From: an uncultured Bacteroidota bacterium | GTDB lineage: Bacteria; Bacteroidota; Bacteroidia; Bacteroidales; VadinHA17 | Assembly (NCBI GenBank): GCA_937864815.1 | Contig: CALMJY010000079.1 | Span: 1-36,059 of the forward strand | Reading direction: 5' to 3' | DNA: 36,059 bases | Shown: positions 16,411 to 30,640 of the stretch, in pieces | Numbering within the stretch: the first letter of the stretch is position 1 | How the letters are laid out: every line of letters begins with the position of its first letter | Notes under the pieces: model-generated | What the model was told of the DNA's origin: nothing | Databases searched by the model: none | The model's input: the letters and a program-made list of their open reading frames with translations, nothing else | Translations under genes and position numbers: made by a program

Positions 16411-18513
16411 TTAAACAATTTTTCCTTTTGTTATTTCCACAATTCTGTTTGATATTTCTGCAGGCACCTTTTCGTAGTGAGAGAACTCCATTGTTGAAGT
16501 TGCTCTTCCCGAGGTAAGGGTTCTGAGTACTGTAACATAACCGAACTTCTCGGCCAGAGGTACTTTTGCTTTGATAACCCTTGCTCCTGCTTTCGATTCC
16601 ATTCCTTCCACCTTGCCTCTTCTCCTGTTGAAATCACCTATAACGTCACCTACATACTCCTCGGGAGTAACAACTTCAGTGGACATAATAGGCTCGAGTA
16701 TCACCGGGTTGCATTTGCCGGCAAATTTCCTGAAAGCCTGTTTTGCTGCGATTTCAAAAGAAAGAGAATCAGAGTCAACCGGATGGGATGAACCGTCTTT
16801 GAGTATAACCTTCAGACTGTCGAGAGGGAATCCGGCAAGCGGACCATTGTCCATAGACTCACGGAATCCTTTTTCAACAGATGGAATATACTCCTTGGGA
16901 ACATTTCCGCCCTTAACTGCATTCACAAACTGAAGGCCCCTGATACCATTATCTGTCGGGCCAAGTTCAAATATAATATCGGCAAACTTACCACGCCCGC
17001 CTGACTGTTTCTTGAATACCTCGCGGAATTCGCCGGAAGTGGTAATTGCCTCTTTGTATGCTACCTGGGGAGCTCCCTGGTTACATTCTACCTTAAATTC
17101 TCTCTTAAGCCTGTCAATAAGAATCTCCAGGTGAAGTTCGCCCATACCATGAATGACAGTCTGTCCGCTGTCGGGATCAGATTTAACCTGGAAAGTCGGA
17201 TCCTCTTCTGCCAGTTTTCCGAGTGCCATTGAAAGCTTGTCAATGTCAGCCTGTGTTTTAGGCTCTATTGCAACTCCGATTACCGGATCGGGGAAATCCA
17301 TTGATTCAAGAAGTATCGGTTTATTAATTGCGCAAAGTGTATCGCCTGTTTTGATATCCTTGAATCCAACCCCGGCACAAATATCTCCGGCTGCTATTTT
17401 GTCTTTGGGATTCTGCTTGTTTGCATGCATCTGGAAGAGACGGTTTATACGCTCTCTTTTACCAGTACGAACATTCAGGACTGTGTCACCTGCATTGAGT
17501 GTTCCGGAATATACCCTGAGGAAAGCAAGACGTCCGACAAAAGGATCGGTTGCAATCTTGAATGCAAGAGCTGCCAGGGGCGCCTCGTCATCCGGTCCAC
17601 GGGTAATAACTCCATCATTTCTCGGGTCAGTTCCTGTTACTTCGCCTTTATCTACCGGTGAAGGAAGAAAAGCTACAACTGAATCGAGAAGGCTCTGAAC
17701 ACCTTTATTTTTAAATGCTGATCCGCAAATCACCGGGATTGCGTGTCCCAGGATCGCTGTTTTTCTTAAAGCGAGAATAATCTCTTCTGGTGTTATTGAA
17801 TCGTGGTCTTCAAGGAAACGTTCAAGAAGAGTATCATCAACCTCAGCAACTGTTTCAACCAGTTTAGCCCTGTATTCTTCTGCTTCCTCACGAAGATCAG
17901 CGGGTATTTCCTCAACAACAGGCTTTGTTCCGTTTTCACCATCAGGATAAAAAACGGTAGCTTTCATACTGATCAGGTCGATGATTCCCCTGAAGTTCTC
18001 CTCTGCGCCTATCGGAAGCTGAACAGGTATAGGGTTGGCACCGAGCTTTTCCCTGATCTGCTGAACCACGCTGAGAAAATCAGCACCGGCCCTGTCCATC
18101 TTATTTACAAAAGCAATACGGGGTACACCATATTTGTCAGCCTGTCTCCAGACAGTTTCCGACTGTGGTTCAACACCGCCTACTGCACAGAAAACCGCAA
18201 CGGCTCCATCGAGTACCCTGAGTGATCTTTCAACTTCAACAGTAAAGTCAACGTGCCCCGGAGTGTCGATTATATTGATCTTATAATCTTCCGAGTTGTA
18301 TTTCCAGTATGTTGTTGTAGCAGCAGATGTAATTGTAATCCCTCTCTCCTGTTCCTGAACCATCCAGTCCATCGTTGCATTTCCGTCATGAACTTCACCC
18401 ATGCGATGGGTACGACCGGTATAGAACAGAATACGTTCTGTTGTGGTGGTCTTACCGGCATCGATGTGAGCCATGATTCCGATGTTCCTTGTATATTTCA
18501 GGTTCTTGTCCAT
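16411..18513 (-). CDS. fusA: Elongation factor G (canonical, GTPase-competent)
   Basis: Drives ribosomal translocation and, with RRF, recycling. The start at 18513 ([20 protein letters not shown]) gives 700 aa. The open frame extends 38 residues further but would overlap rpsG. All G motifs are intact: P-loop AHIDAGKTT (15-23), switch I ERGIT (56-60), DTPGH (83-87) with the catalytic His87, and NKMD (137-140). Domain II follows, and domain IV begins near [12 protein letters not shown]. It lies between rpsG and rpsJ. It is the active counterpart of the divergent paralogue at 19834. Confidence 0.99.
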
Positions 18514-18544
18514 CTGTTTTCTTTTCCCTGCTGCCTGATTAATA

Positions 18545-19021
18545 TCAGAATCTGAAATGTGCAAAAGCTTTATTGGCTTCAGCCATCCTGTGGGTGTCTT
18601 CTTTTTTCTTATATGCACCGCCCTCAAGCTTATATGCTGCCATTAATTCAGCTGCAAGTTTCTCAGCCATTGAATGACCGGTCCTTTTCCTTGCGAAAAG
18701 AATCATATTCTTCATGCTTATGGCAACTTTCCTGTCGGGTCTGATTTCCATAGGAACCTGGAATGTGGCACCACCTACGCGGCGGGCTTTAACCTCTACC
18801 TGAGGAGTTACATTATCAAGAGCCTGCTTGAATATTTCAAGAGGGGTTTTTCCTTCGTTCCTGAATTTATCTCCGACGATATCAAGTGATTCGTATAAAA
18901 TCTTGAAAGCCAGATTCTTTTTACCACTGAACATAAGATTATTCACAAACCTTGTTACATACGGATCTTTGTATTTTGGATCCGGTAACAGAATCCTCTT
19001 CTTTGGTCTTGCTTTTCTCAT
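18545..19021 (-). CDS. rpsG: 30S ribosomal protein S7
   Basis: Head protein that initiates assembly of the 16S 3' domain and lies near the E site. It is 158 aa. It begins [20 protein letters not shown], has the helical signature [20 protein letters not shown] and [20 protein letters not shown], and ends AHFRF. It sits 19 bp after rpsL and 31 bp before fusA. Confidence 0.99.
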
Positions 19022-19040
19022 TATCTTATATCTTTAACTG

Positions 19041-19415
19041 TTACTTCTTAGGCCTTTTGGCACCATATTTTGATCTTCTCTGAGTACGGCCATCAACACC
19101 TGATGTATCGAGAGCACCACGAACAAGGTGATAACGAACACCCGGCAGATCTTTAACCCTGCCACCTCTGATCAGAACGATAGAGTGCTCCTGGAGATTA
19201 TGGCCCTCTCCCGGGATATAGGCATTTACTTCTTTCTGGTTGGTCAGCCTTACCCTGGCTACCTTCCTCATAGCTGAATTAGGCTTCTTTGGTGTGGTTG
19301 TATAAACGCGCACACATACACCCCTTCTCTGAGGACATGAATCCAGAGCAGGTGCTTTACTTTTGTCGATCAGTTTTTTCCTGCCTTTTCTTACTAACTG
19401 CTGAATTGTGGGCAT
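19041..19415 (-). CDS. rpsL: 30S ribosomal protein S12
   Basis: Decoding-centre protein. It is 124 aa. The loops [20 protein letters not shown] and [19 protein letters not shown] are intact. The two lysines whose mutation gives streptomycin resistance in E. coli, K43 and K88, are both present, so no such resistance allele is seen. D89 is the residue that RimO methylthiolates in E. coli. First gene of the 33-gene transcript, with a strong promoter about 50 bases upstream. Confidence 0.99.
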
Positions 19416-19461
19416 AATTCCAATTATTTTAGCATTAAATTTTACTCAAAAAAATGGTTTG

Positions 19462-19492
19462 CAAAGGTATTATAATTATTTTTTAATTCAAA
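19462..19492 (-). promoter_or_regulatory. Bacteroidota-type promoter of the ribosomal operon (rpsL)
   Basis: On the minus strand TTTG (19492-19489), exactly 19 bases, then TACCTTTG (19469-19462) matches the Bacteroidota consensus TTTG-N19-TAnnTTTG in full. Transcription should begin near 19455, leaving a leader of about 40 bases before the rpsL ATG. Confidence 0.85.
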
Positions 19493-19769
19493 ATCAATAA
19501 TATAAATTTTTTCAAACTATTTATTTCACTACACATAAACAACCTGACAATTGCCATTAATCAGGCCCTTATACATGTTTTTCAAAAAAATATCTTACTT
19601 AAATTGTAAGTTATAAACAGGTTTTGCTTCCCGACCTTTCCCGCTGAAATGCCTTTTGTAAACTTACGGTGAAGGAAAAACCGGTACTCCTGTATTTCAA
19701 AAAACTGGTGCAAAGAAAATAAAAATTTTCGAATTATGCACTCTTTTCTATTCTGTTTTAAAAAATTAT

Positions 19770-19777
19770 TATTTTTG
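19770..19777 (+). promoter_or_regulatory. Candidate promoter (-7 box) of the EF-G paralogue
   Basis: TATTTTTG is a full match to TAnnTTTG, and would start transcription about 50 bases before the ATG at 19834. The -33 region shows no TTG at the right distance, so the promoter may be weak or activator-dependent. Confidence 0.4.
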
Positions 19778-19833
19778 TCACCTTCATTATTGGTATATAA
19801 TATAATTGTATAACATATAATAACCAGAGAAAT

Positions 19834-21990
19834 ATGAAAACATACCAGGCGGACCAGATTAAAAACATTGCCCTTCTCGGCAACTCGGGGTCAGGAAAGA
19901 CAACGCTTGCTGAAGCAATGCTTTTTAATGGTGGCGTTATCGAAAGAAGGGGAACTATTGAAGGAAAAAATACTGTTTCCGACTATCGGCCGATTGAACA
20001 TGAGAACGGAAACTCAATCTATTCAACAGTTCTCTACACCGAATTCCAGAATAAAAAGATTAACATCCTGGATACACCGGGTCTCGATGACTTCAGTGGT
20101 GGTGTTATTTCATCTCTCTTCGCTGCAGACTCTGCACTTATGACCATAAACGTTCAGAACGGTGTTGAAGTGGGAACTGAAATACATTTCAGACATTCTG
20201 AAAAGAATAATAAACCTCTCATTCTGGTCATAAACGGGCTGGATCATGAAAAGGCACATTTCGAGAAAGCAGTTGAAATGATGAAGGAGAGGCTGAGTAC
20301 AGATATTATACTACTGCAATATCCGGTTAATGAAGGAACCGGCTTCAACTCAATAATTGATGTCCTTAAAATGAAAATGCTCCGTTATTCAAAGGACGGA
20401 GGAAAGGCAGAAGTGGTTGAAATCCCTGCTGACCAGGCTGATAAGGCTGGTGAGATGCGCAGTGCCCTTATTGAGAAAGCTGCCGAGAGTGATGAATCAC
20501 TTATGGAGCTCTTCTTTGCAAATGATACACTTACTGAAGAAGAAATAAAGAAAGGCCTTGCAAAAGGAATCATCAAACGGGGTATTTTCCCAGTTCTGTG
20601 CTGTTCTTCCAAAAACAATATAGGGGTTGACCAGGTAATGGAATTCATTGTAAATGCTGCACCTTCAATTACAGATATGCCTGCAGTTAAAAACAATAAA
20701 GGTGCTGAAGTCAAACCAAATCCTGCCGGACCAGCATCTGTTTATGTTTTCAAATCAGCAATCGAGGAGCATATTGGTGAAATAAACTATTTCAGGATTC
20801 TCTCAGGAAAAATTACTGAAAACCTCGATGTTGTCAATACAAGCAACGGTGGTAAGGAAAGACTTTCCCAGCTTTATGTCTGTGCAGGTAAAAACAGGAC
20901 TAAAGTACCTGAACTTAATACCGGCGATATAGGTGCGTTTGTAAAACTCAAGAACACAAAAATGGGTCATACCCTGAATGCATCCGGTAATGACTGGAAA
21001 TATGAAGGTATTTTATTCCCTGAACCTAAATACCGAACTGCAATCAAAGCCCAGAGCGAAAGTGATGATGAAAAGCTTGGTGAAACACTCAACAAGATCC
21101 ACCTCGAAGATCCGACAATAATCATCGAGTATTCAAAAGAATTAAAACAGATCATCGTTCATGGACAGGGAGAATATCACCTTAACATAATGAAATGGCA
21201 TCTTGATAACATATACAAGATCCCGACAAATTTCTTCCCTCCGAAAATTCCTTACCGTGAGACAATAACCAAAACCGCACAGGCCGATTATCGGCATAAG
21301 AAGCAGTCGGGTGGTGCAGGTCAGTTTGGTGAAGTACATATGGTAATTGAACCTTTTGAGGAAGGTTCAAAAGAACTTTCAATGATAAAGATTGGAGGAA
21401 AAGAGCAGAAGATATCAGTCCGCGACAAGGAAGAGATAGCTCTGCCATGGGGAGGTAAACTTGTTTACTGTAACTGTATTGTTGGTGGTTCAATTGATGC
21501 CAGGTTCATGCCTGCAATTCTCAAGGGTATAATGGAAAAGATGGAGGTAGGTCCTCTTACCGGTTCATATGCACGCGACATAAGGGTTTATGTGTATGAT
21601 GGCAAGATGCACCCTGTTGACTCCAATGAAATTTCATTCCGTCTTGCAGGAAGAAATGCATTCAGCACAGCATTCAGGAATGCCGGTCCGAAAATCATGG
21701 AACCTGTTTATGATGTGGAAATTTTCGTACCATCTGACCGTATGGGTGATGTGATCAGCGACCTGCAGGGTAGACGCGGTATGGTTCTGGGAATGGCCAG
21801 TGAGAAAAGGTTCGAAGTGATAAAGGCCAAGGTTCCACTTGCTGAAATGAACAAGTACTCCACAGCACTCAGTTCAATAACCGGAGGACGTGCAATGTAC
21901 ACAATGAAATTTGCTGAATATTCCCAGGTTCCGGGCGATGTCCAGGATTCTGTTATCAAGGCTTACTCGGAGGAAGAGGAAGAGGAATAG
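19834..21990 (+). CDS. fusA2: EF-G paralogue (EF-G2) with altered GTPase site
   Basis: A full-length elongation factor G homologue (718 aa). It has a P-loop GNSGSGKTT (16-24), domain III/IV elements such as KKQSGGAGQFGEV, and the domain V end SITGGRAMYTMKFAEYSQVP followed by a poly-Glu tail. Three catalytic features differ from EF-G. The switch I ERGIT reads ENGNS (57-61). The DTPGH motif reads DTPGL (80-84), losing the catalytic His. NKxD reads NGLD (134-137). It is therefore likely to bind GTP weakly or not to hydrolyse it. From memory, an EF-G2 of Bacteroides thetaiotaomicron supports translocation without GTP hydrolysis and matters in starvation and gut colonisation; orthology here is inferred. 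It diverges from rpsL and converges on the NapH-like gene. Confidence 0.93.
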   Translation: MKTYQADQIKNIALLGNSGSGKTTLAEAMLFNGGVIERRGTIEGKNTVSDYRPIEHENGNSIYSTVLYTEFQNKKINILDTPGLDDFSGGVISSLFAADSALMTINVQNGVEVGTEIHFRHSEKNNKPLILVINGLDHEKAHFEKAVEMMKERLSTDIILLQYPVNEGTGFNSIIDVLKMKMLRYSKDGGKAEVVEIPADQADKAGEMRSALIEKAAESDESLMELFFANDTLTEEEIKKGLAKGIIKRGIFPVLCCSSKNNIGVDQVMEFIVNAAPSITDMPAVKNNKGAEVKPNPAGPASVYVFKSAIEEHIGEINYFRILSGKITENLDVVNTSNGGKERLSQLYVCAGKNRTKVPELNTGDIGAFVKLKNTKMGHTLNASGNDWKYEGILFPEPKYRTAIKAQSESDDEKLGETLNKIHLEDPTIIIEYSKELKQIIVHGQGEYHLNIMKWHLDNIYKIPTNFFPPKIPYRETITKTAQADYRHKKQSGGAGQFGEVHMVIEPFEEGSKELSMIKIGGKEQKISVRDKEEIALPWGGKLVYCNCIVGGSIDARFMPAILKGIMEKMEVGPLTGSYARDIRVYVYDGKMHPVDSNEISFRLAGRNAFSTAFRNAGPKIMEPVYDVEIFVPSDRMGDVISDLQGRRGMVLGMASEKRFEVIKAKVPLAEMNKYSTALSSITGGRAMYTMKFAEYSQVPGDVQDSVIKAYSEEEEEE

Positions 21991-22223: not shown

Positions 22224-23486
22224 TCATTCAGCCACACCACTCTGCAGCTTAAACAACATTTCTTTCAAAGCCGCTTCGTCTATAAACCTTTCTCCATCAT
22301 ATAAGACTTTTACAGAATGTTTACCAACGTAGGTTGCCACGCCATATACACCTTCAATCTCCTTAAGCCGGTCTGAATACATAACCGATGTTCCGTAACA
22401 TTTAACATTATTCAAACCCTCCACTGTTACTGTCATCGCCTTTTCCAACTGAGCAGTATTGCCCCATTTAACATTTATTGTAGGCAGTTCAAATACAGAA
22501 CCTGCAACCAGACCCGAAATAATAAGGATTCCCAGGACAGTTCCGGGCAGCCACCTCACATTTCTTTTATTTATCTGAAGCGTATCTTTCTCAGGACATA
22601 CACAGAGGCAATCTCCGCAAAGGTTGCAGTCAATATGTGCTACCTTTTCCATGGCTGCAACATCTATCTCCTGGGGACAAGCTTTTGAACATGAACCACA
22701 GCCCGTACATGTTGTGGTACTCCTTGATATGTAAGTAAGCAAAGGTTTAACCTTCTTTATATGTACAATTTCAAGTATATATCCTGCACATATGAATGCC
22801 AGTAGAGGATAAATAAATGGTATCTCAATTCCTGTAAATGACAGTAATAAAAACAGTACCGCAATACCTGCAAACCACCAGAAGTATCTGAATATATTGG
22901 TCAAAGCTCCAAAGGGGCAGAGGTACCTGCACCAGAAAAATCTGAAAATAACCGATCCGGCAATAAGTATAATAATTGCTGCAAGGGCATACCAGAGGAC
23001 CACATCCGAACCAAAACCGGAAGCTACAGCATAATAGGGGTCGAATTTCCTGCAGAAGAGCTCACTGGATGTAAGTGTGAAATAGAATGTTATAAAAAGG
23101 AGCATATATTTGATGGCGCGTAATGAACTGTCAAAGGATTCACTGACATTTACCTTTGTTTTAAGTCTGTTTCCAAGCTTACCAAGCCATTCACTGAAAG
23201 TGCCAAGAGGGCAGATATATCCGCAGAAAAGTTTACTGAACAGCGCTGCTCCGGCAAAAAGCATTACTCCCATCATTATCTGCATGGTAGTCATCGAACA
23301 GGAAAGAGAATTCAGATTAAAAAAACTTCCCAGTGCCTGTAATCCACCAAAAGGACAATATGCTTCAAAGTCGGCAACATATGCCTTGTCGTACAGCAGC
23401 CGGAGTCCCATAAAAAATAATGCAGCAAAAACTGCAAGCTGATAAATAATCTTAAAATAGTTTGTTTGTTTCTCGGTGCCGGGCAT
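22224..23486 (-). CDS. NapH/NosR-like polyferredoxin membrane protein with degenerate HMA-like tail
   Basis: Inner-membrane iron-sulfur protein, 420 aa, probably carrying electrons between quinones or a membrane donor and an unknown partner. It has several predicted membrane segments (about 13-31, 68-86, 126-141, 163-182, 202-240, 314-332). It carries CPFGG (44-48) and two CxxxCP motifs, CGYICP (88-93) and CRYLCP (186-191), typical of the NapH/NosR/CcoG group. Two [4Fe-4S] ferredoxin motifs follow: CTGCGSCSKACP (260-271) and CNLCGDCLCVCP (287-298). After the last membrane segment, residues 350-415 resemble a heavy-metal-associated domain, but the CxxC metal site is missing and only C363 remains. 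No partner redox gene is adjacent. The exact role is unknown. Confidence 0.85.
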   Translation of the reverse strand: MPGTEKQTNYFKIIYQLAVFAALFFMGLRLLYDKAYVADFEAYCPFGGLQALGSFFNLNSLSCSMTTMQIMMGVMLFAGAALFSKLFCGYICPLGTFSEWLGKLGNRLKTKVNVSESFDSSLRAIKYMLLFITFYFTLTSSELFCRKFDPYYAVASGFGSDVVLWYALAAIIILIAGSVIFRFFWCRYLCPFGALTNIFRYFWWFAGIAVLFLLLSFTGIEIPFIYPLLAFICAGYILEIVHIKKVKPLLTYISRSTTTCTGCGSCSKACPQEIDVAAMEKVAHIDCNLCGDCLCVCPEKDTLQINKRNVRWLPGTVLGILIISGLVAGSVFELPTINVKWGNTAQLEKAMTVTVEGLNNVKCYGTSVMYSDRLKEIEGVYGVATYVGKHSVKVLYDGERFIDEAALKEMLFKLQSGVAE

Positions 23487-25043: not shown

Positions 25044-28000
25044 CTAGTGCTTGTTATTCTCCCCATTCATGAAATCCATTTCTGAATAGACTGCCAGGTT
25101 CTTGTTTCGTTCCCCATGCTTTGCAAATATGGCATAAACTACAGGAACAAGTACCAGCGTAACAACTGTTGAGAAAATAAGTCCTCCGATAACAGATACA
25201 CCCATCGGACTCCAGAGTTCAGATCCTGATCCTTTGCTCATTGCCAGAGGGAACATACCGAGAATAGTTGTGGCTGATGTCATTATTACAGGTCTTAGCC
25301 TTGAACGTCCTGAAATAGATATGGCTTCATATAATTCATATCCCCTGTCCCGCATAAGGTTGATAAAGTCAACAAGAACAATTGCGTTCTTTACGACGAT
25401 ACCTATAAGCATTACTGCGCCAATAGCCGAAATCACACTAAGAGTGGTATTTGTCAGGAACAGTGCAAGTGCAACTCCCGAAAAAGCAAACGGAATTGAG
25501 AACATGATTATAAATGGCATTTTAAGAGATTCAAACTGTGATGCCATTATAAGATATACCAGTACAAGGCTGAGAAGAATTAGCATTGCTATATCCATGA
25601 ATGCTTCCATCTGCTCCTTAATGGCACCGGAAATCTGCACCATAACACCTGAAGGCATAATTGTCTCATCAATTATTTTCTGCACATCAATCTGAATATC
25701 TGTAAGTGAACGTTTATACGGTGTAAAGCTTACTCTTACAATACGTTCCTTACGTTTACGTTCGATACTTGGCGGAGACCAGTATTCTTTAATCTGGGCT
25801 ATTTCTCCCAGTCGTATGACCTGGCCCATCGGATTGGTAATGCCTATATTTTCAATTTCCGTAATTGTGCTTCTTGCATCTTTTTTCAGTCGTACTACAA
25901 CATCATATTCATCACCAAACTGCCGCAGACGGGTCGCCGTCATACCATCCACCCTGTTCTTTACAGCCATCGATGCCATCGCGGTATTCAAACCATTGGC
26001 ACTCATTTTATTCTGATCGAATATGATCTGAAGTTCCGGCTTTGATCTTGCACGGCTGATAGTCACATCCGTACATCCGGGAACTGCTTTGATTTTCCCG
26101 GAGAGCTCTTCAGCTACGAGGTTTGTCTCGGCAATATCGTACCCGTATACTTCAACATCAACCGCACTGCCTCCGAAACTACCCATATTATCGGATGTTG
26201 AGACCTTATATGTTACAATCTCTGACATTTTTGCCAAATCTGCCCTCATTTCATCCGCAAGTTCAAATACACTTTTCTTTCTTTCTTCTATGGGTACAAG
26301 ACTGAGGTTATAGGTTATTTTATGAGTACCCCCCGACTGGAAGATTGAAGCGAATCCACCCTGGTCATCAGCTCCGGAGGAAGTTGAAATTATACGGACT
26401 TCAGGGTATTTTTCCTTTATCAGCTTATCGATATTATCTGCAGTAATTACTGTCTGTTCCACTCTTGTACCTGTCTGCAATTCAACAGTAATCGACATTG
26501 TTGATTCATCAGCCTGTGGGAAGAATTCTGTTTTAATGACGGCGAATAATCCCATCGAGGTGACAAATATTATGAATGCCACTATTGATACAAATGTTTT
26601 ATGATGAAGGGCCCATCTGAGTGTTCTCTCATAATAATGGTCGAGCCAGTCGAGACCTTTCCTTATACTTCCGTCATAAGTCCAGAACGGAGCGTCTTTT
26701 TTAATAGGATACCATTTCAGCATAAGAGCACTCAGTGTTGGTGTGAGAGTGATAGCGGCAAACACTGAAGTAACGATAGTAATTGTAACTATCATACCAA
26801 GCTGCTTGAAAAGTACACCGGTAAGTCCTGTAACAAATGTAAGCGGGAAGAATACTGCAACAACCGTCATTGTAGTGACAATAACTGCAAGCCACACCTC
26901 GTTGGTAGCATAAATGGAAGCTTCCCTTGGCCGGCTCCCCCTTTCTATATGCTTTGTAATATTCTCGAGTACAACAATTGCGTCATCCACCACCATCCCT
27001 ATGGCGATAGAGAGAGAAGTAAGAGATATTATATTTATTGAGGCATCTGTAACAAACAGGTATATAAATGCCACAATAAGAGAAATTGGTATTGTGAGTA
27101 TTATTATGAATGTGGCACGCCAGCGTCCCAGGAAGAACAGGACGACCAGAATAACAAATATTGCCGCGTACATAAGAGTATCGGTAAGGTTGCTTATTGA
27201 TCCTTTGATGAAAGAGGCACTATCGAACAGTTTCTCTATTTTAACATCTTCAGGAAGATCCCTGATAAGAGTTTCAAGCATCTTGTCCACTTCTTCCGTA
27301 ACTTCTACCGTGTTCCCTCCCGACTGTTTCTGGACAAACATCGCCATACCCTTTTCGCCGTTGATTTTTGTATCGAGCTTCGATTCACGGATAGTGTCTC
27401 GTACCTCTGCCACATCTTTGAGATAGACATTGTTTCCGTTATAGCTGCTTATAACCAGATTCTTAACTACATCACTCTCGGGAAATTCTCCCTGGATACG
27501 CAGGGGATAATCTGTTTTTCCCATCTCAATATAACCGGCAGGCATGTTCATGTTTTCTGCACGCAACACATTGCCTATTTGTTCAATAGTGAGATTGTAA
27601 GCCTCCATCTTCTGAGGGTCGACATCGATATAAACCTTACGGCCAGGAACCCCTGCCAGCGCAACTGAACCTACACCTTCGATCCTGTTAAGGGGATTCA
27701 CAATCTTTTGATCAAGGATCTTCTCAAGACCTGCATAACTCTCCTTTGCTGTTACTGCATAGAAGACAATGGGCATGAAACTCGTGCTGAACTTGATAAT
27801 AGTAGGTTTTTCACAATCGTCAGGCAGAGCCCGTTCAACAAAGCTCAGTAAACTCCGGATGTCATTGGAGGCTTCGTCGAGATTGGTGCCATATTCAAAG
27901 TTCATGAATATTACTGAATTGGCATCACTCGAAGTAGATGTGATCTCCTTAAGATTACTGACAGAGTTAAGTGAGTTTTCCAGCAACCTGGTCACATTTG

Positions 28001-28181
28001 TTTCAATATCCGATGCGCTTGCACCAGGATAGGTAGTATAAACAACCACAAAAGGCAATTCCATCTCCGGATAAAGATCCACAGGCAATTGCTTAAGAGA
28101 ATAAAGTCCCATCACCATTAATCCCACAAAGATCAGAATGGTTGTTACAGGACGTTTTACGGATGAACTATATATACTCAT
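25044..28181 (-). CDS. RND multidrug efflux permease, HAE1 family
   Basis: Inner-membrane proton-driven pump, 1045 aa, of the AcrB type. It should form a tripartite complex with the two upstream-encoded proteins. Twelve membrane segments and two large periplasmic loops are expected. The proton-relay residues are present: D399 and D400 in GMVVDDAIVVLEN (segment 4), and K931 in GIVVKNAIVLVDF (segment 10). The N-terminus SSVKRPVTTILIFVGLMVMG and KQLPVDLYPEMELPFV are typical of HAE1. No heavy-metal (CusA-type) methionine motif stands out, so organic compounds are the likelier substrates. It starts 29 bp after the membrane-fusion gene. Confidence 0.95.
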   Translation of the reverse strand: MSIYSSSVKRPVTTILIFVGLMVMGLYSLKQLPVDLYPEMELPFVVVYTTYPGASASDIETNVTRLLENSLNSVSNLKEITSTSSDANSVIFMNFEYGTNLDEASNDIRSLLSFVERALPDDCEKPTIIKFSTSFMPIVFYAVTAKESYAGLEKILDQKIVNPLNRIEGVGSVALAGVPGRKVYIDVDPQKMEAYNLTIEQIGNVLRAENMNMPAGYIEMGKTDYPLRIQGEFPESDVVKNLVISSYNGNNVYLKDVAEVRDTIRESKLDTKINGEKGMAMFVQKQSGGNTVEVTEEVDKMLETLIRDLPEDVKIEKLFDSASFIKGSISNLTDTLMYAAIFVILVVLFFLGRWRATFIIILTIPISLIVAFIYLFVTDASINIISLTSLSIAIGMVVDDAIVVLENITKHIERGSRPREASIYATNEVWLAVIVTTMTVVAVFFPLTFVTGLTGVLFKQLGMIVTITIVTSVFAAITLTPTLSALMLKWYPIKKDAPFWTYDGSIRKGLDWLDHYYERTLRWALHHKTFVSIVAFIIFVTSMGLFAVIKTEFFPQADESTMSITVELQTGTRVEQTVITADNIDKLIKEKYPEVRIISTSSGADDQGGFASIFQSGGTHKITYNLSLVPIEERKKSVFELADEMRADLAKMSEIVTYKVSTSDNMGSFGGSAVDVEVYGYDIAETNLVAEELSGKIKAVPGCTDVTISRARSKPELQIIFDQNKMSANGLNTAMASMAVKNRVDGMTATRLRQFGDEYDVVVRLKKDARSTITEIENIGITNPMGQVIRLGEIAQIKEYWSPPSIERKRKERIVRVSFTPYKRSLTDIQIDVQKIIDETIMPSGVMVQISGAIKEQMEAFMDIAMLILLSLVLVYLIMASQFESLKMPFIIMFSIPFAFSGVALALFLTNTTLSVISAIGAVMLIGIVVKNAIVLVDFINLMRDRGYELYEAISISGRSRLRPVIMTSATTILGMFPLAMSKGSGSELWSPMGVSVIGGLIFSTVVTLVLVPVVYAIFAKHGERNKNLAVYSEMDFMNGENNKH

Positions 28182-28210
28182 AACAGTTCTTTTTATTTAA
28201 ATCACGACAA

Positions 28211-29275
28211 TTAGTTTACAAGTTCTGTTTTGTCGCCGTTAATAAGACGTGCCTGGCCTTGAGTTACCAGCATATCACCTTCTTTTATATCTGAAGCAAT
28301 AATCTCAAGCTGGTCATCGAATCTTTTACCGAGCTGCACTTCTATTCTCTCGGCAACATTGTTCCTGTTGATAAAGACATAGCGTGTGTTTGTGCCTTCC
28401 TGTACCATCACGGTATTTGCAGGAACTACAAAAGTTTCAACCTCACCAAGGTCCATGGAAACTCTCACAAACATCCCTGGTTTTAGCATTTCATTCCTGT
28501 TGGCAAGCTCAAGTTCCACATTGAAAGAACGTGTTGCCGAATTGATTGTCGGAGCTATCCTGAATACCTTACCAATGAATTTTTCATTTTTATAAACATC
28601 CGCGGCTATCTCTGCATTCATACCTTTTTTTATCAGAGGATAGTATTGTTCGGAGATACTTACATTCACCTTGAGAGGGTTGATCTGCATTACCGTCACA
28701 ACAGCTGACCTTCCTGTAGAAGTAGTGGGTGCACCCGAATACATTTCACCATTCTCAAAATATTTGCCTGTTACAATACCGTCAAAAGGTGCCTTCATAA
28801 GAGTATTCTGCTTCATGAAATCCACATTTGTCTTTGTCACATCATATTGTGTTTTCAGCTGGTCATACTGTTGCTGCTTAGCGCTTCCTGATCTGAGCAG
28901 GGTATCAAGCCTGGAAAGGTCTTTTGAAAGATTACTGAGTTGAAGCTCCATCTGGTAAAGCTGGGTTCTGTCCATCAGAAAGAGATCATCTCCCTTTTTT
29001 ATCCTGTCGCCAACCTCAACATATATCTTATCAACTCTACCCGGTGTGGAAGGTGCCATATTTACCTCTTCAAATGGCAGAATTGTAGCTGTATAATCAA
29101 TTGTACGCGAGATTCTGGATTTTGCGAGACTCATTGTTTTTATGGGTATAGTACCCCTTTCACCTGTTACTGCTGCCTGCTGAACAGTATCAGCTGGTTT
29201 ATCACTTTTTGAGGAACATCCTGCTAAGATAAGGAGGCTGAAAAGTATTACCGGAATTGTTCTTAAGTATTTCAT
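28211..29275 (-). CDS. Membrane-fusion (periplasmic adaptor) lipoprotein of RND pump
   Basis: Links the pump to the outer-membrane channel. It is 354 aa with a lipoprotein signal ending LILAGC, so Cys20 is lipidated. The barrel-sandwich (lipoyl-like) parts are at about 65-95 (MAPSTPGRVDKIYVEVGDRI) and about 160-180 (LMKAPFDGIVTGKYFENGEM), separated by a short coiled-coil hairpin. The beta-barrel region contains KVNVSISEQYYPLIKKGMNA, followed by the membrane-proximal domain (LKPGMFVRVSMDLGEV). It is the second structural gene after the channel. Confidence 0.94.
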   Translation of the reverse strand: MKYLRTIPVILFSLLILAGCSSKSDKPADTVQQAAVTGERGTIPIKTMSLAKSRISRTIDYTATILPFEEVNMAPSTPGRVDKIYVEVGDRIKKGDDLFLMDRTQLYQMELQLSNLSKDLSRLDTLLRSGSAKQQQYDQLKTQYDVTKTNVDFMKQNTLMKAPFDGIVTGKYFENGEMYSGAPTTSTGRSAVVTVMQINPLKVNVSISEQYYPLIKKGMNAEIAADVYKNEKFIGKVFRIAPTINSATRSFNVELELANRNEMLKPGMFVRVSMDLGEVETFVVPANTVMVQEGTNTRYVFINRNNVAERIEVQLGKRFDDQLEIIASDIKEGDMLVTQGQARLINGDKTELVN

Positions 29276-29302
29276 TATTTTAATTTTACAGGTTTTTGTA
29301 TT

Positions 29303-30640
29303 TTAAATATTATTAAGTAGTTTATCAAGTGCTATTTTGGTCTGTAGCAGGTTCAGCAAAGCAGATACATAGTTGTTTTCCGATTGCAGGTAAAGCTGGT
29401 TAGCCTGGGTCAGTTCAAGACTCGAAGCCATACCCTGCCGGAACTTATTCTCGGTACTGGCGTAAACCCTCTTTGAAACCTCGACATTTTCTTTCTGACT
29501 GAGATACTGCTGATTTGCATTCACAAGGTTAAACCTTAGCTGTTTTTCCTGTAGCAGCAGTTGCTCGGTAACCATGTCCTTCGTAGTCTTTGCCTTATCA
29601 AGATTTATCTGAGCTTTTTTAATCCTGGAATACCTCTGTCCGCTGGCAAAAATGGGTACCGTGATCTGAAGTCCTGTCATGGAATTGGGGAACCATTGAA
29701 GATCTCCTATCTTATCTCCCATACCATTTGTTCCATATGTATAGAAGCCTGATAATGTAGGTAAAACTGCTGCCTTTTGTGTTCTAAGGTTTAGTGCAGA
29801 CAGCTGCTCCTGTCCTTCTATCAGCTGATAGTTAACATTCTGTCTGTGGTCAAATTCCTGTACCATAAGTGCATCAACATTAATCATTGCAGTAAGGCTT
29901 TCGAGAGTCTCGGTAATTATAATCTTTGTCTCAGGAGTAACTCCCAACTGGAATCTCAGAAGGTTATAGTTTAATTCTATTGTTCTCTGCATGGAGCTTC
30001 TTGCATTTTCAACAAGCGTAACGTTCGATATCATCTGGTCCACATCTGTAGCTTCAGCCATTCCTGCTGAGTACATAGCCCTGGTAGATTTAAGGGTCTC
30101 TTTCAGGTTATTAATATTAACATCGAGGATTCTAAGTGATTCCTCCGATACAATTATCAGAAAATATGCAGTACTGACCGACTCCCTTGTATCCTGTTCT
30201 GACTTCACGAGATTTTTCTCACTCAGCTTATTTGCAAGCTTTGTGGTTTCAATACCAACATAAAGCGGTGCATTAAAGAGAAGCATACTTGCCTGAATGG
30301 TACCTCCCGAGTTGAACTGTGAACCAAAAGTTACCGGAACCTTTTCCCCCGGCTTTCCAAAGAAATCACCAGGTAAAAGAGTTGTCATGAGTTTAAGGTT
30401 ATCTGCAAATGAACCTGTTGCATCGACTGAAGGAAGAGCTGCCGAGATTGTCTCCCATATAGCCTCTCTTGATGCAGCAATATCGTATCTGGCTGTTATC
30501 ACACTCTTATTGTTCTGAATGGCATAGTCCTGAGCCTCTTTCAGTGATAGCTTTAATTCAGTAGTGTCGCTTTGTGCAAATAGCGATGACACTGTTATGA
30601 TTAACAGAATCGCAGTATTAATAAGTAATTTGTGTTTCAT
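29303..30640 (-). CDS. TolC-family outer-membrane efflux channel
   Basis: Outer-membrane exit duct for the RND pump. It is 445 aa. The signal peptide is about residues 1-22 (MKHKLLINTAILLIITVSSL...FAQ), with no lipobox. The two-fold repeat of long helices is visible, each half with an LSLKEAQDYAIQNN- or ANQLYLQSENNYVSALLNLL-like element. The family features of alternating heptads and small residues are present. First structural gene, 47 bp after the regulator. Confidence 0.93.
   Translation of the reverse strand: MKHKLLINTAILLIITVSSLFAQSDTTELKLSLKEAQDYAIQNNKSVITARYDIAASREAIWETISAALPSVDATGSFADNLKLMTTLLPGDFFGKPGEKVPVTFGSQFNSGGTIQASMLLFNAPLYVGIETTKLANKLSEKNLVKSEQDTRESVSTAYFLIIVSEESLRILDVNINNLKETLKSTRAMYSAGMAEATDVDQMISNVTLVENARSSMQRTIELNYNLLRFQLGVTPETKIIITETLESLTAMINVDALMVQEFDHRQNVNYQLIEGQEQLSALNLRTQKAAVLPTLSGFYTYGTNGMGDKIGDLQWFPNSMTGLQITVPIFASGQRYSRIKKAQINLDKAKTTKDMVTEQLLLQEKQLRFNLVNANQQYLSQKENVEVSKRVYASTENKFRQGMASSLELTQANQLYLQSENNYVSALLNLLQTKIALDKLLNNI

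Follow-up and report, generated by a model that had tools for sequence, protein, structure and literature searches.

An EF-G2 of the Bacteroides thetaiotaomicron kind beside the rpsL-rpsG-fusA genes of an uncultured Bacteroidales bacterium, predicted to translocate without GTP hydrolysis

The locus analysed here raises the question of whether a bacterium can hold, beside its ribosomal genes, a second EF-G that moves the ribosome without hydrolysing GTP. The locus lies in a contig of 36,059 nucleotides, called the window throughout, from an uncultured Bacteroidota bacterium of the Bacteroidales lineage VadinHA17 (GenBank assembly GCA_937864815.1, contig CALMJY010000079.1), and contains a canonical EF-G gene, fusA, together with a paralogue, fusA2, which an original prediction had described as lacking its catalytic His and had likened to EF-G2 of Bacteroides thetaiotaomicron. 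Judged by its sequence, fusA2 is an orthologue of B. thetaiotaomicron EF-G2 (BT_2167), belonging to an already known starvation-factor family. The two genes are the following:

19834-21990, plus strand: fusA2, EF-G paralogue of 718 amino acids with an ATG start (open reading frame of 718 codons)
16411-18513, minus strand: fusA, canonical EF-G (TIGR00484, 1036.5 bits against a cut-off of 659.4)

The open reading frame listed for fusA runs from a TTG at 16411-18627, and the MDKNL start at about 18513 is our own placing, which fits the family. The two genes span 16411-21990, that is 5.58 kb, and are divergent, as had been described, and a Pfam search of the genome for EF-G domain III matched only these two EF-G genes.

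The window protein matches the NCBIfam model NF058620 (EFG2_Bacteroid) over residues 1-717 with 1195.1 bits against a cut-off of 1000, and scores 499.3 with the canonical EF-G model, below its cut-off of 659.4. The best solved chain is that of B. thetaiotaomicron EF-G2 (PDB 7uvp/8dmf, 966 bits over residues 1-718), to which the window protein is colinear over its full length with 58.8% identity in 718 columns, compared with 34.1% identity to the canonical EF-G of its own window. With the family score, this identity and the common clade described below, the proposed likeness proved correct. All five EF-G domains (I-V) are matched in Pfam, and the two window proteins share this architecture and the domain IV tip, but the canonical one keeps the His, RGIT and NKMD and has no domain IV insert; the paralogue departs from canonical EFG I in RGITI, DTPGH, NKMD and the position in the str operon. 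It resembles instead the EFG II subfamily (Margus 2011) in its switch I Ser, the absent catalytic His and the retained P-loop, DxPG and NxxD. The rule for EFG II in the available part of that work is Ser for Thr, with a G2 motif of xxxSx that reads YGYSV in Bacteroidetes (PMC3150367), and the window protein has Ser61 at this place. An AlphaFold2 model (22 sequences; mean predicted local distance difference test, pLDDT, 79.8; predicted template-modelling score, pTM, 0.66) found as its first Foldseek match 8dmf, the title of which is ribosome-bound B. thetaiotaomicron EF-G2 (expectation value, E, 4.1e-86; template-modelling score, TM, 0.64), with a root-mean-square deviation of 25.6, so the domain arrangement differs.

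The molecule name of the 7uvp/8dmf chain is Tetracycline resistance protein TetQ, which is likely an annotation error and may spread. Taken at its word, this name would make the window protein a tetracycline ribosomal-protection protein, a reading that we regard as scarcely conceivable: the tet_protect model gives 258.9 bits against a cut-off of 775 and the Tet(Q) model 120.3 against 1425, and the title of 8dmf names EF-G2.

The family reaches well beyond the source of the solved structure. Scores above the family cut-off were found in 134 of 148 genomes of the window's order, in 93 of 117 genomes of its own family (several of the others being pieces at contig edges) and in 15 of 296 genomes of the phylum, many more of which have lower-scoring full-length relatives. 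The nearest loci, the best 80 of 560, are mostly from uncultured Bacteroidales, and several have isolate names that refer to fen, lake or sediment. The source bacterium is a free-living relative of gut Bacteroides, and since the nearest records bear such names, EF-G2 of the B. thetaiotaomicron kind, reaching uncultured Bacteroidales, is not a gut specialty.

For residue comparisons we aligned 320 distinct rows, comprising 68 canonical EF-G and 252 EF-G2 (348 before copies of the window and identical cores were dropped); the row collections share assemblies, so the rows are not independent. The length of one segment in domain IV divides the EF-G2 rows into classes of 27 residues (14 rows, drawn from low-scoring EFG II matches), 47-49 residues (83 rows), 56-58 residues (154 rows, including the window and B. 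thetaiotaomicron) and 72 residues (one row), of which the first three are hereafter the 27, 47 and 56 classes. The segment measures 27-28 residues in canonical EF-G and 56 in the window protein, the same as in 7uvp. The surplus is an insert in two layers, of which about 19 residues also occur in the 83 other EF-G2 rows and nine more (about 517-525) occur in the 56 class, and it is modelled by AlphaFold2 as beta strands with moderate confidence. The primary paper on B. thetaiotaomicron EF-G2 (Han et al. 2023) reportedly puts the missing GTPase activity down to a region of 26 residues that only EF-G2 has; we take the window insert to be at the same place, presuming so from the length that it shares with B. 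thetaiotaomicron. The nine-residue extension was ruled out as a mark of the whole order, one group of Bacteroidales genomes being of the 47 class. Elsewhere, the EF-G2 of locus L266 has a still longer segment of 72 residues, and the canonical EF-G of loci L287 and L288 has a segment of 40, which makes it about 12 residues longer there.

The sites that were compared are the following:

19879-19905, plus strand: P-loop GNSGSGKTT, residues 16-24, intact (K22 in 149/149 readable rows of the window's clade)
19996-20016, plus strand: switch I EHENGNS, with Asn58 in the place of Arg and Ser61 in the place of Thr (Arg in 68/68 canonical rows and 5/150 of the window's clade)
20071-20085, plus strand: G3 motif DTPGL, with the catalytic His replaced by Leu84 in the alignment
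20233-20244, plus strand: G4 motif NGLD, with Lys replaced by Gly135 and Asp137 kept in the alignment
21358-21453, plus strand: domain IV insert region, residues 509-540, the insert itself being about 511-538 (segment length 56)
21970-21987, plus strand: acidic tail EEEEEE (the last eight residues hold on average 4.66 Asp or Glu in the clade, 150 rows, and 0.91 in canonical EF-G, 66 rows)

The alignment reproduces the motifs that had been read for both proteins, namely EHENGNSIY, DTPGL and INGLD in the paralogue and EQERGITIT, DTPGH and VNKMD in canonical EF-G, as well as the retained P-loop, domains and poly-Glu tail (YSEEEEEE). It also places Leu84 of the window protein, and no His, at the catalytic position when B. 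thetaiotaomicron EF-G2 is included. The claim of three changed residues held for His to Leu84 and for the G4 Lys to Gly135, but the switch I change from Thr to Ser61 is conservative and not a loss; Ser is in fact found here in 242 of 247 EF-G2 rows (27 class 14/14, 47 class 78/83, 56 class 150/150).

The catalytic site is His in all 68 canonical rows and in none of the 249 readable EF-G2 rows, a difference beyond chance given these counts. What replaces it varies with the class: Tyr in 13 of 14 rows of the 27 class; Tyr (39), Phe (22), Thr (11), Leu (8), Ser, Pro and Ala (1 each) in the 47 class; and Leu (71), Ala (33), Ser (30), Met (9), Phe, Gly and Pro (2 each), Asn and Thr (1 each) in the 56 class. 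The switch I Arg, or Lys in its place, is present in all 97 rows of the 27 and 47 classes, and the G4 Lys is retained in 14/14, 32/83 and 5/153 rows of the 27, 47 and 56 classes, respectively. The EF-G2 proteins of other Bacteroidota in the 47 class are thus like the window protein in their insert of about 19 residues and in having no His, but differ from it in a His site filled by Tyr, Phe or Thr (72/83), in the switch I Arg or Lys (83/83), in the more frequent NKxD Lys and in lacking the nine-residue extension. Within the 56 class the other nucleotide-binding residues are as constant as K22 (D80 151/151, G83 151/151, N134 153/153, D137 150/153), and H593 and D596 of the domain IV tip are invariant (153/153). 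Because the pocket and H593 are nearly invariant while the His site is varied, GTP binding and the translocating tip are constrained in the 56 class while the catalytic position drifts. On the aligned residues, the window's clade is distinguished by a combination of traits: its His site is occupied by small or aliphatic residues, the switch I Arg has been lost and the insert in domain IV is longer, while the nucleotide-binding residues are kept.

The order in which these changes arose was addressed with a tree of 104 rows (IQ-TREE quick search with the SH-like approximate likelihood ratio test, SH-aLRT, and no bootstrap), which has two long-branch rows and from which Thermus thermophilus EF-G-2 was left out. 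Canonical EF-G separates (SH-aLRT 100), followed by the rows of the 27 class and then by a clade of 82 insert-bearing rows (95), within which all 39 rows of the 56 class, including the window and B. thetaiotaomicron, stand together (99). The phylogenetic check proposed with the original prediction therefore places the window protein with B. thetaiotaomicron EF-G2, and the clade keeps its value of 99 after removal of the insert and His columns; the lone row with 72 residues groups with the 47 class. Counted on this tree, there is one change between His and any other residue, and there are 23 changes of residue at the His site and four of the G4 Lys. The basal rows suggest that His was absent first, while Tyr or Phe, the switch I Arg or Lys and often NKxD were still kept, and the remaining branching suggests that the insert of 19 residues came later, followed in one clade by the nine-residue extension, along with which the switch I Arg and the aromatic residue were lost. 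Such an order of steps offers natural intermediates for asking which change switches GTP hydrolysis off, and the need for hydrolysis in translocation is described as still debated in the abstract of PMC12775393. Loci L086-L171 from other Bacteroidota are such intermediates: their EF-G2 mostly places Tyr, Phe or Thr where the His would be, retains the switch I Arg or Lys and has the shorter insert.

How the window protein would work can be approached through its characterised orthologue. Papers citing the primary work credit B. thetaiotaomicron EF-G2 with GTP-independent translation (PMC10294740) and with translocation in which no GTP is hydrolysed (PMC12775393). We consider it very probable that the window EF-G2 likewise binds GTP and translocates by binding energy and domain IV without hydrolysing GTP, serving slow and cheap translation at low energy. 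It would bind GTP and enter the ribosomal A site in the manner of EF-G, and would move tRNA and mRNA by binding energy and domain IV, with no hydrolysis triggered by the ribosome, before leaving with its GTP unhydrolysed. The hydrolysis step would have been lost because Leu stands in the place of the water-placing His, the switch I Arg is gone and the domain IV insert is long, and the likely use of such a factor would be translation under energy shortage. Absent GTPase activity, translocation and use in starvation are thus what we infer for a protein whose orthology, residue states, insert, pocket and tip are observed.

Certain points weigh against this mechanism. The likeness to B. thetaiotaomicron EF-G2 consists of the insert length of 56, the clade, the lost His and switch I Arg and the change of Thr to Ser, but the two proteins differ at key sites, the window having Leu where B. 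thetaiotaomicron has Ser at the His site, DTPG where it has DCPG, NGLD where it has NQLD (Gly against Gln at G4) and ENGNS where it has EYGYS (Asn against Tyr in switch I), so that the loss of GTPase activity is carried over to the window protein by orthology. As reported below, the upstream region of the window gene also gave no starvation-type regulatory site above chance.

Further, the missing His, from which the original prediction had argued for absent GTPase activity, is not diagnostic on its own. T. thermophilus EF-G-2 (1wdt) reads DAPGY at G3, and according to Connell et al., as cited in the available part of Margus 2011 (PMC3150367), it binds GTP, hydrolyses it and is active in poly(Phe) synthesis. 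With every readable EF-G2 row lacking His and one Tyr-bearing member reported to be active, loss of the His as the sole cause of GTPase loss is ruled out. The same protein favours the rival reading that the window EF-G2 is still a GTPase, slower than EF-G, in which backbone or rRNA contacts compensate for the missing His and Arg, and the retained nucleotide-contacting residues of the window's clade are in keeping with this. However, T. thermophilus EF-G-2 differs from the window protein in having Tyr at the His site and TKLD, compared with Leu84 and an insert, and the window protein aligns to it in two stretches only, which we read as the absence of a matching insert. The window's clade is further changed, with no Tyr and only two Phe in 151 rows at the His site, switch I Arg and G4 Lys mostly lost and a longer insert, and its characterised member is described as working without hydrolysis in the citing papers named above. 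We therefore hold a residual GTPase to be unlikely, and prefer translocation without hydrolysis.

In another rival reading, the window EF-G2 would act mainly in ribosome recycling, splitting or storage, as mitochondrial EFG2 does. EFG duplicates elsewhere share out translocation and recycling, as in Borrelia (Margus 2011, PMC3150367, in part), and fusA2 of B. thetaiotaomicron is given in the accessible text of PMC6989115 as required for gut colonisation and otherwise dispensable. Chains of mitochondrial ribosome-releasing factor 2, however, score much lower with the window protein than the B. thetaiotaomicron chain (227-239 bits against 966), and the B. thetaiotaomicron orthologue is described as supporting translation (PMC10294740), so that this division of labour strikes us as highly improbable, and translocation without GTP hydrolysis remains the preferred reading.

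The original prediction also held that the divergent layout would allow opposite control in growth and starvation, and such control is on record for B. thetaiotaomicron. On carbon limitation, fusA2 mRNA of B. thetaiotaomicron rises 238-fold while fusA mRNA falls 10-fold, and the regulator Cur (BT4338) binds CCTTATGTTACATAACATTGTT upstream of fusA2, as stated in the parts of PMC6989115 that were available. In 191 upstream regions of at most 420 bp, we scored matches at the 14 positions that the published consensus fixes, with 100 shuffles each. Upstream of the window fusA2 no Cur site above chance was found, the best match being 11/14 and equalled by 19 of 100 shuffles, so starvation control of this gene is unsupported by sequence; Cur control is rejected here for this clade and with this consensus only. 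In Bacteroides-type loci, sites of 12-14 of 14 positions, reached by 0/100 shuffles, lie at -96 to -176 in 10 of 27 (L174, L179, L181, L183-L186, L188, L189 and L194), and the remaining 17 score 8-11. Outside this type, 12/14 was reached in L062, L199 and L200, with 1, 3 and 8 of 100 shuffles as high, respectively. The Cur site is a regulatory trait of Bacteroides species and not a defining feature of the protein, and fusA2 regulation seems, from these upstream regions, to differ within Bacteroidales. The window genome encodes eight proteins with a cyclic nucleotide monophosphate (cNMP)-binding domain. A promoter element for the gene itself was predicted:

19770-19777, plus strand: TATTTTTG, predicted -7 box for fusA2 (matches TAnnTTTG)

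The pattern TAnnTTTG, which we take to be the Bacteroidota-type -7 box consensus, occurs at -95 to -35 of fusA2 in 54 of 61 divergent loci, against a shuffle mean of 3.1.

The window differs from B. thetaiotaomicron also in that fusA2 is beside rpsL and no Cur site was found upstream; fusA2 and fusA of B. thetaiotaomicron, BT_2167 and BT_2729, are seemingly not adjacent, as inferred from their locus numbers. In the window, fusA2 diverges from rpsL-rpsG-fusA across a gap of 418 bp between rpsL and fusA2, and NCBIfam profiles confirm S7, S12, S10 and L3:

18545-19021, minus strand: rpsG, ribosomal protein S7 (TIGR01029)
19041-19415, minus strand: rpsL, ribosomal protein S12 (TIGR00981)

An rpsL upstream on the opposite strand was seen in 62 of the best 80 of 560 loci, with 10 lacking it and 8 unreadable. 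Among 91 order-level rows it was present in 17, every one of the 56 class (52 others of this class without it and 2 unreadable); the lone row with 58 residues lacks it, as do 17 rows of the 47 class (1 unreadable), and the row with 72 residues is unreadable in this respect. It was not seen in 26 readable of 28 Bacteroides-type rows, where the flanks are for the most part some 1.5 kb long, nor in the 77 of 83 rows of the 47 class that could be read, and in 3 of 79 opposite-strand loci (L049, L217 and L227) rpsL is 2.9-4.3 kb away. By these counts, the divergent rpsL layout is characteristic of the window's branch and turns up sporadically in others.

Between rpsL and fusA2 lies a candidate structured RNA, in the sense direction of the ribosomal genes, together with two putative promoter elements for those genes on the same strand:

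19601-19722, minus strand: candidate pseudoknotted RNA of about 120 nucleotides, sense to rpsL-rpsG-fusA (by comparison)
19711-19718, minus strand: TTTCTTTG, weak -7-like box upstream of the RNA candidate (TATCTTTG in L031; alignment A2)
19462-19469, minus strand: TACCTTTG, perfect -7 box near rpsL, possibly of the ribosomal operon (TAnnTTTG scan)

A search with a profile from first-round hits found 19601-19722 in 43 other loci with E of 3.8e-25 to 2e-34; the 46 matches include the window as L002 and L085, and L230 repeats L030. The candidate occurs within the series L003-L056 and L290-L321, though not in every locus. In the structure, drawn by hand from the window sequence and then counted over 37 sequences, CAGG pairs with CCTG and CCGGTTTTTCC with GGAAAGGTCGG on the minus strand, and GTAAGTT/AACTTAC crosses them to form a pseudoknot; the GU pairs of helix 2 are impossible on the opposite strand. 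In these sequences 97.2% of cells are paired, a share that falls to 30-56% with a slid partner, and the covariation score of 0.168 compares with 0.109 for shuffles, none of 500 of which was as high. Helix 2, in which four pairs are changed on both sides, accounts for the whole of the two-sided covariation, while helix 1 is invariant and helix 3 nearly so; 19 of 407 helix 2 cells are unpaired, and at a single pair as many as 6 of the 37 sequences fail to match. Some measures are weak: four two-sided pairs were reached by 116 of 500 shuffles and a slide of -1 gives five, and the 17 further pair types were reached by 9 of 500 shuffles, the other three measures giving 0/500. The RNAalifold consensus on alignment A2 is likewise weak (energy -5.29, 1 of 15 pairs two-sided) and lacks helix 2. 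Folding the region as a single sequence gives nothing better than shuffles on either strand, so the case for the RNA rests on comparison.

With a covariance model, one copy was found in the window's own genome. Under stricter filters, 3 of 294 genomes of the order had a match, its own among them and all three belonging to its own genus, and 78 of 117 genomes of the family had one copy each. In eight family loci from genomes without a match, searched with filters off, nothing convincing was seen (best 17 bits, E 0.31). The RNA lies 67-849 bp from fusA2 on the opposite strand in 73 of these 78 genomes, and in the other five the two are on separate contigs or fusA2 was not found. In genome G670 (L321/L322) the RNA is upstream of rpsL and fusA2 is on another contig, the roughly 2 kb before it being without rpsL; provided that this draft assembly is correct, the RNA, which stays by rpsL there, goes with the ribosomal operon.

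The window and four relatives gave no Rfam family at the gathering level. The one match under permissive settings, to rli43, scored 11.9 bits where the gathering score is 100 (E 1.9) and was taken as chance, and 6S RNA was ruled out, as the genome had no 6S match and no Rfam family reached the gathering level. A consensus scan called no terminator. Of 61 divergent loci, 36 have the motif GCAAAG at -180 to -85 (shuffle mean 0.86), while a perfect minus-strand TAnnTTTG upstream of the RNA is not enriched (3/61 loci, shuffle mean 5.06), and the promoter of the RNA is therefore unsure. In 31 of 37 sequences, a count without its own shuffle control, a downstream stretch can pair with the 3' arm of the pseudoknot instead, and the alternative hairpins surpass shuffles only by a modest margin (a median of 22 in 200 shuffles being as good).

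The RNA is of interest as a possible control of a ribosomal operon. As a more speculative and rather doubtful proposal, the 418 bp would be a two-way translation switch, directing EF-G2 one way and the str operon, under an Rfam-unmatched pseudoknot leader, the other, so that growth and starvation factors would be set at one site without Cur. The 3' arm of the leader pseudoknot would re-pair with the following hairpin and thereby set the output of S12, S7 and EF-G, and a ribosomal protein, a nucleotide or the energy state would be possible signals. The odds are lowered by the unenriched upstream box and by the rpsL leaders already described from other phyla in the accessible literature. For Bacteroidota, the available portions of PMC7247131 (20 new ribosomal leaders), PMC2864571 (104 motifs) and PMC10931766 (a review) contain no S12 or str leader, and the titles brought up by literature searches name no such leader in this phylum, although such a leader may still be in print.

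Elsewhere in the window, positions 25044-30640 on the minus strand, the strand of the ribosomal cluster, encode a resistance-nodulation-division (RND) efflux permease and a TolC-like protein, with NCBIfam matches below cut-off. Convergent with fusA2 is a membrane-protein-like open reading frame (22224-23486, minus strand) with two Cys-rich motifs of iron-sulphur type recognised by eye and no NCBIfam match at 1e-20, and a similar open reading frame also stands behind fusA2 in L033, L034, L043 and L079.

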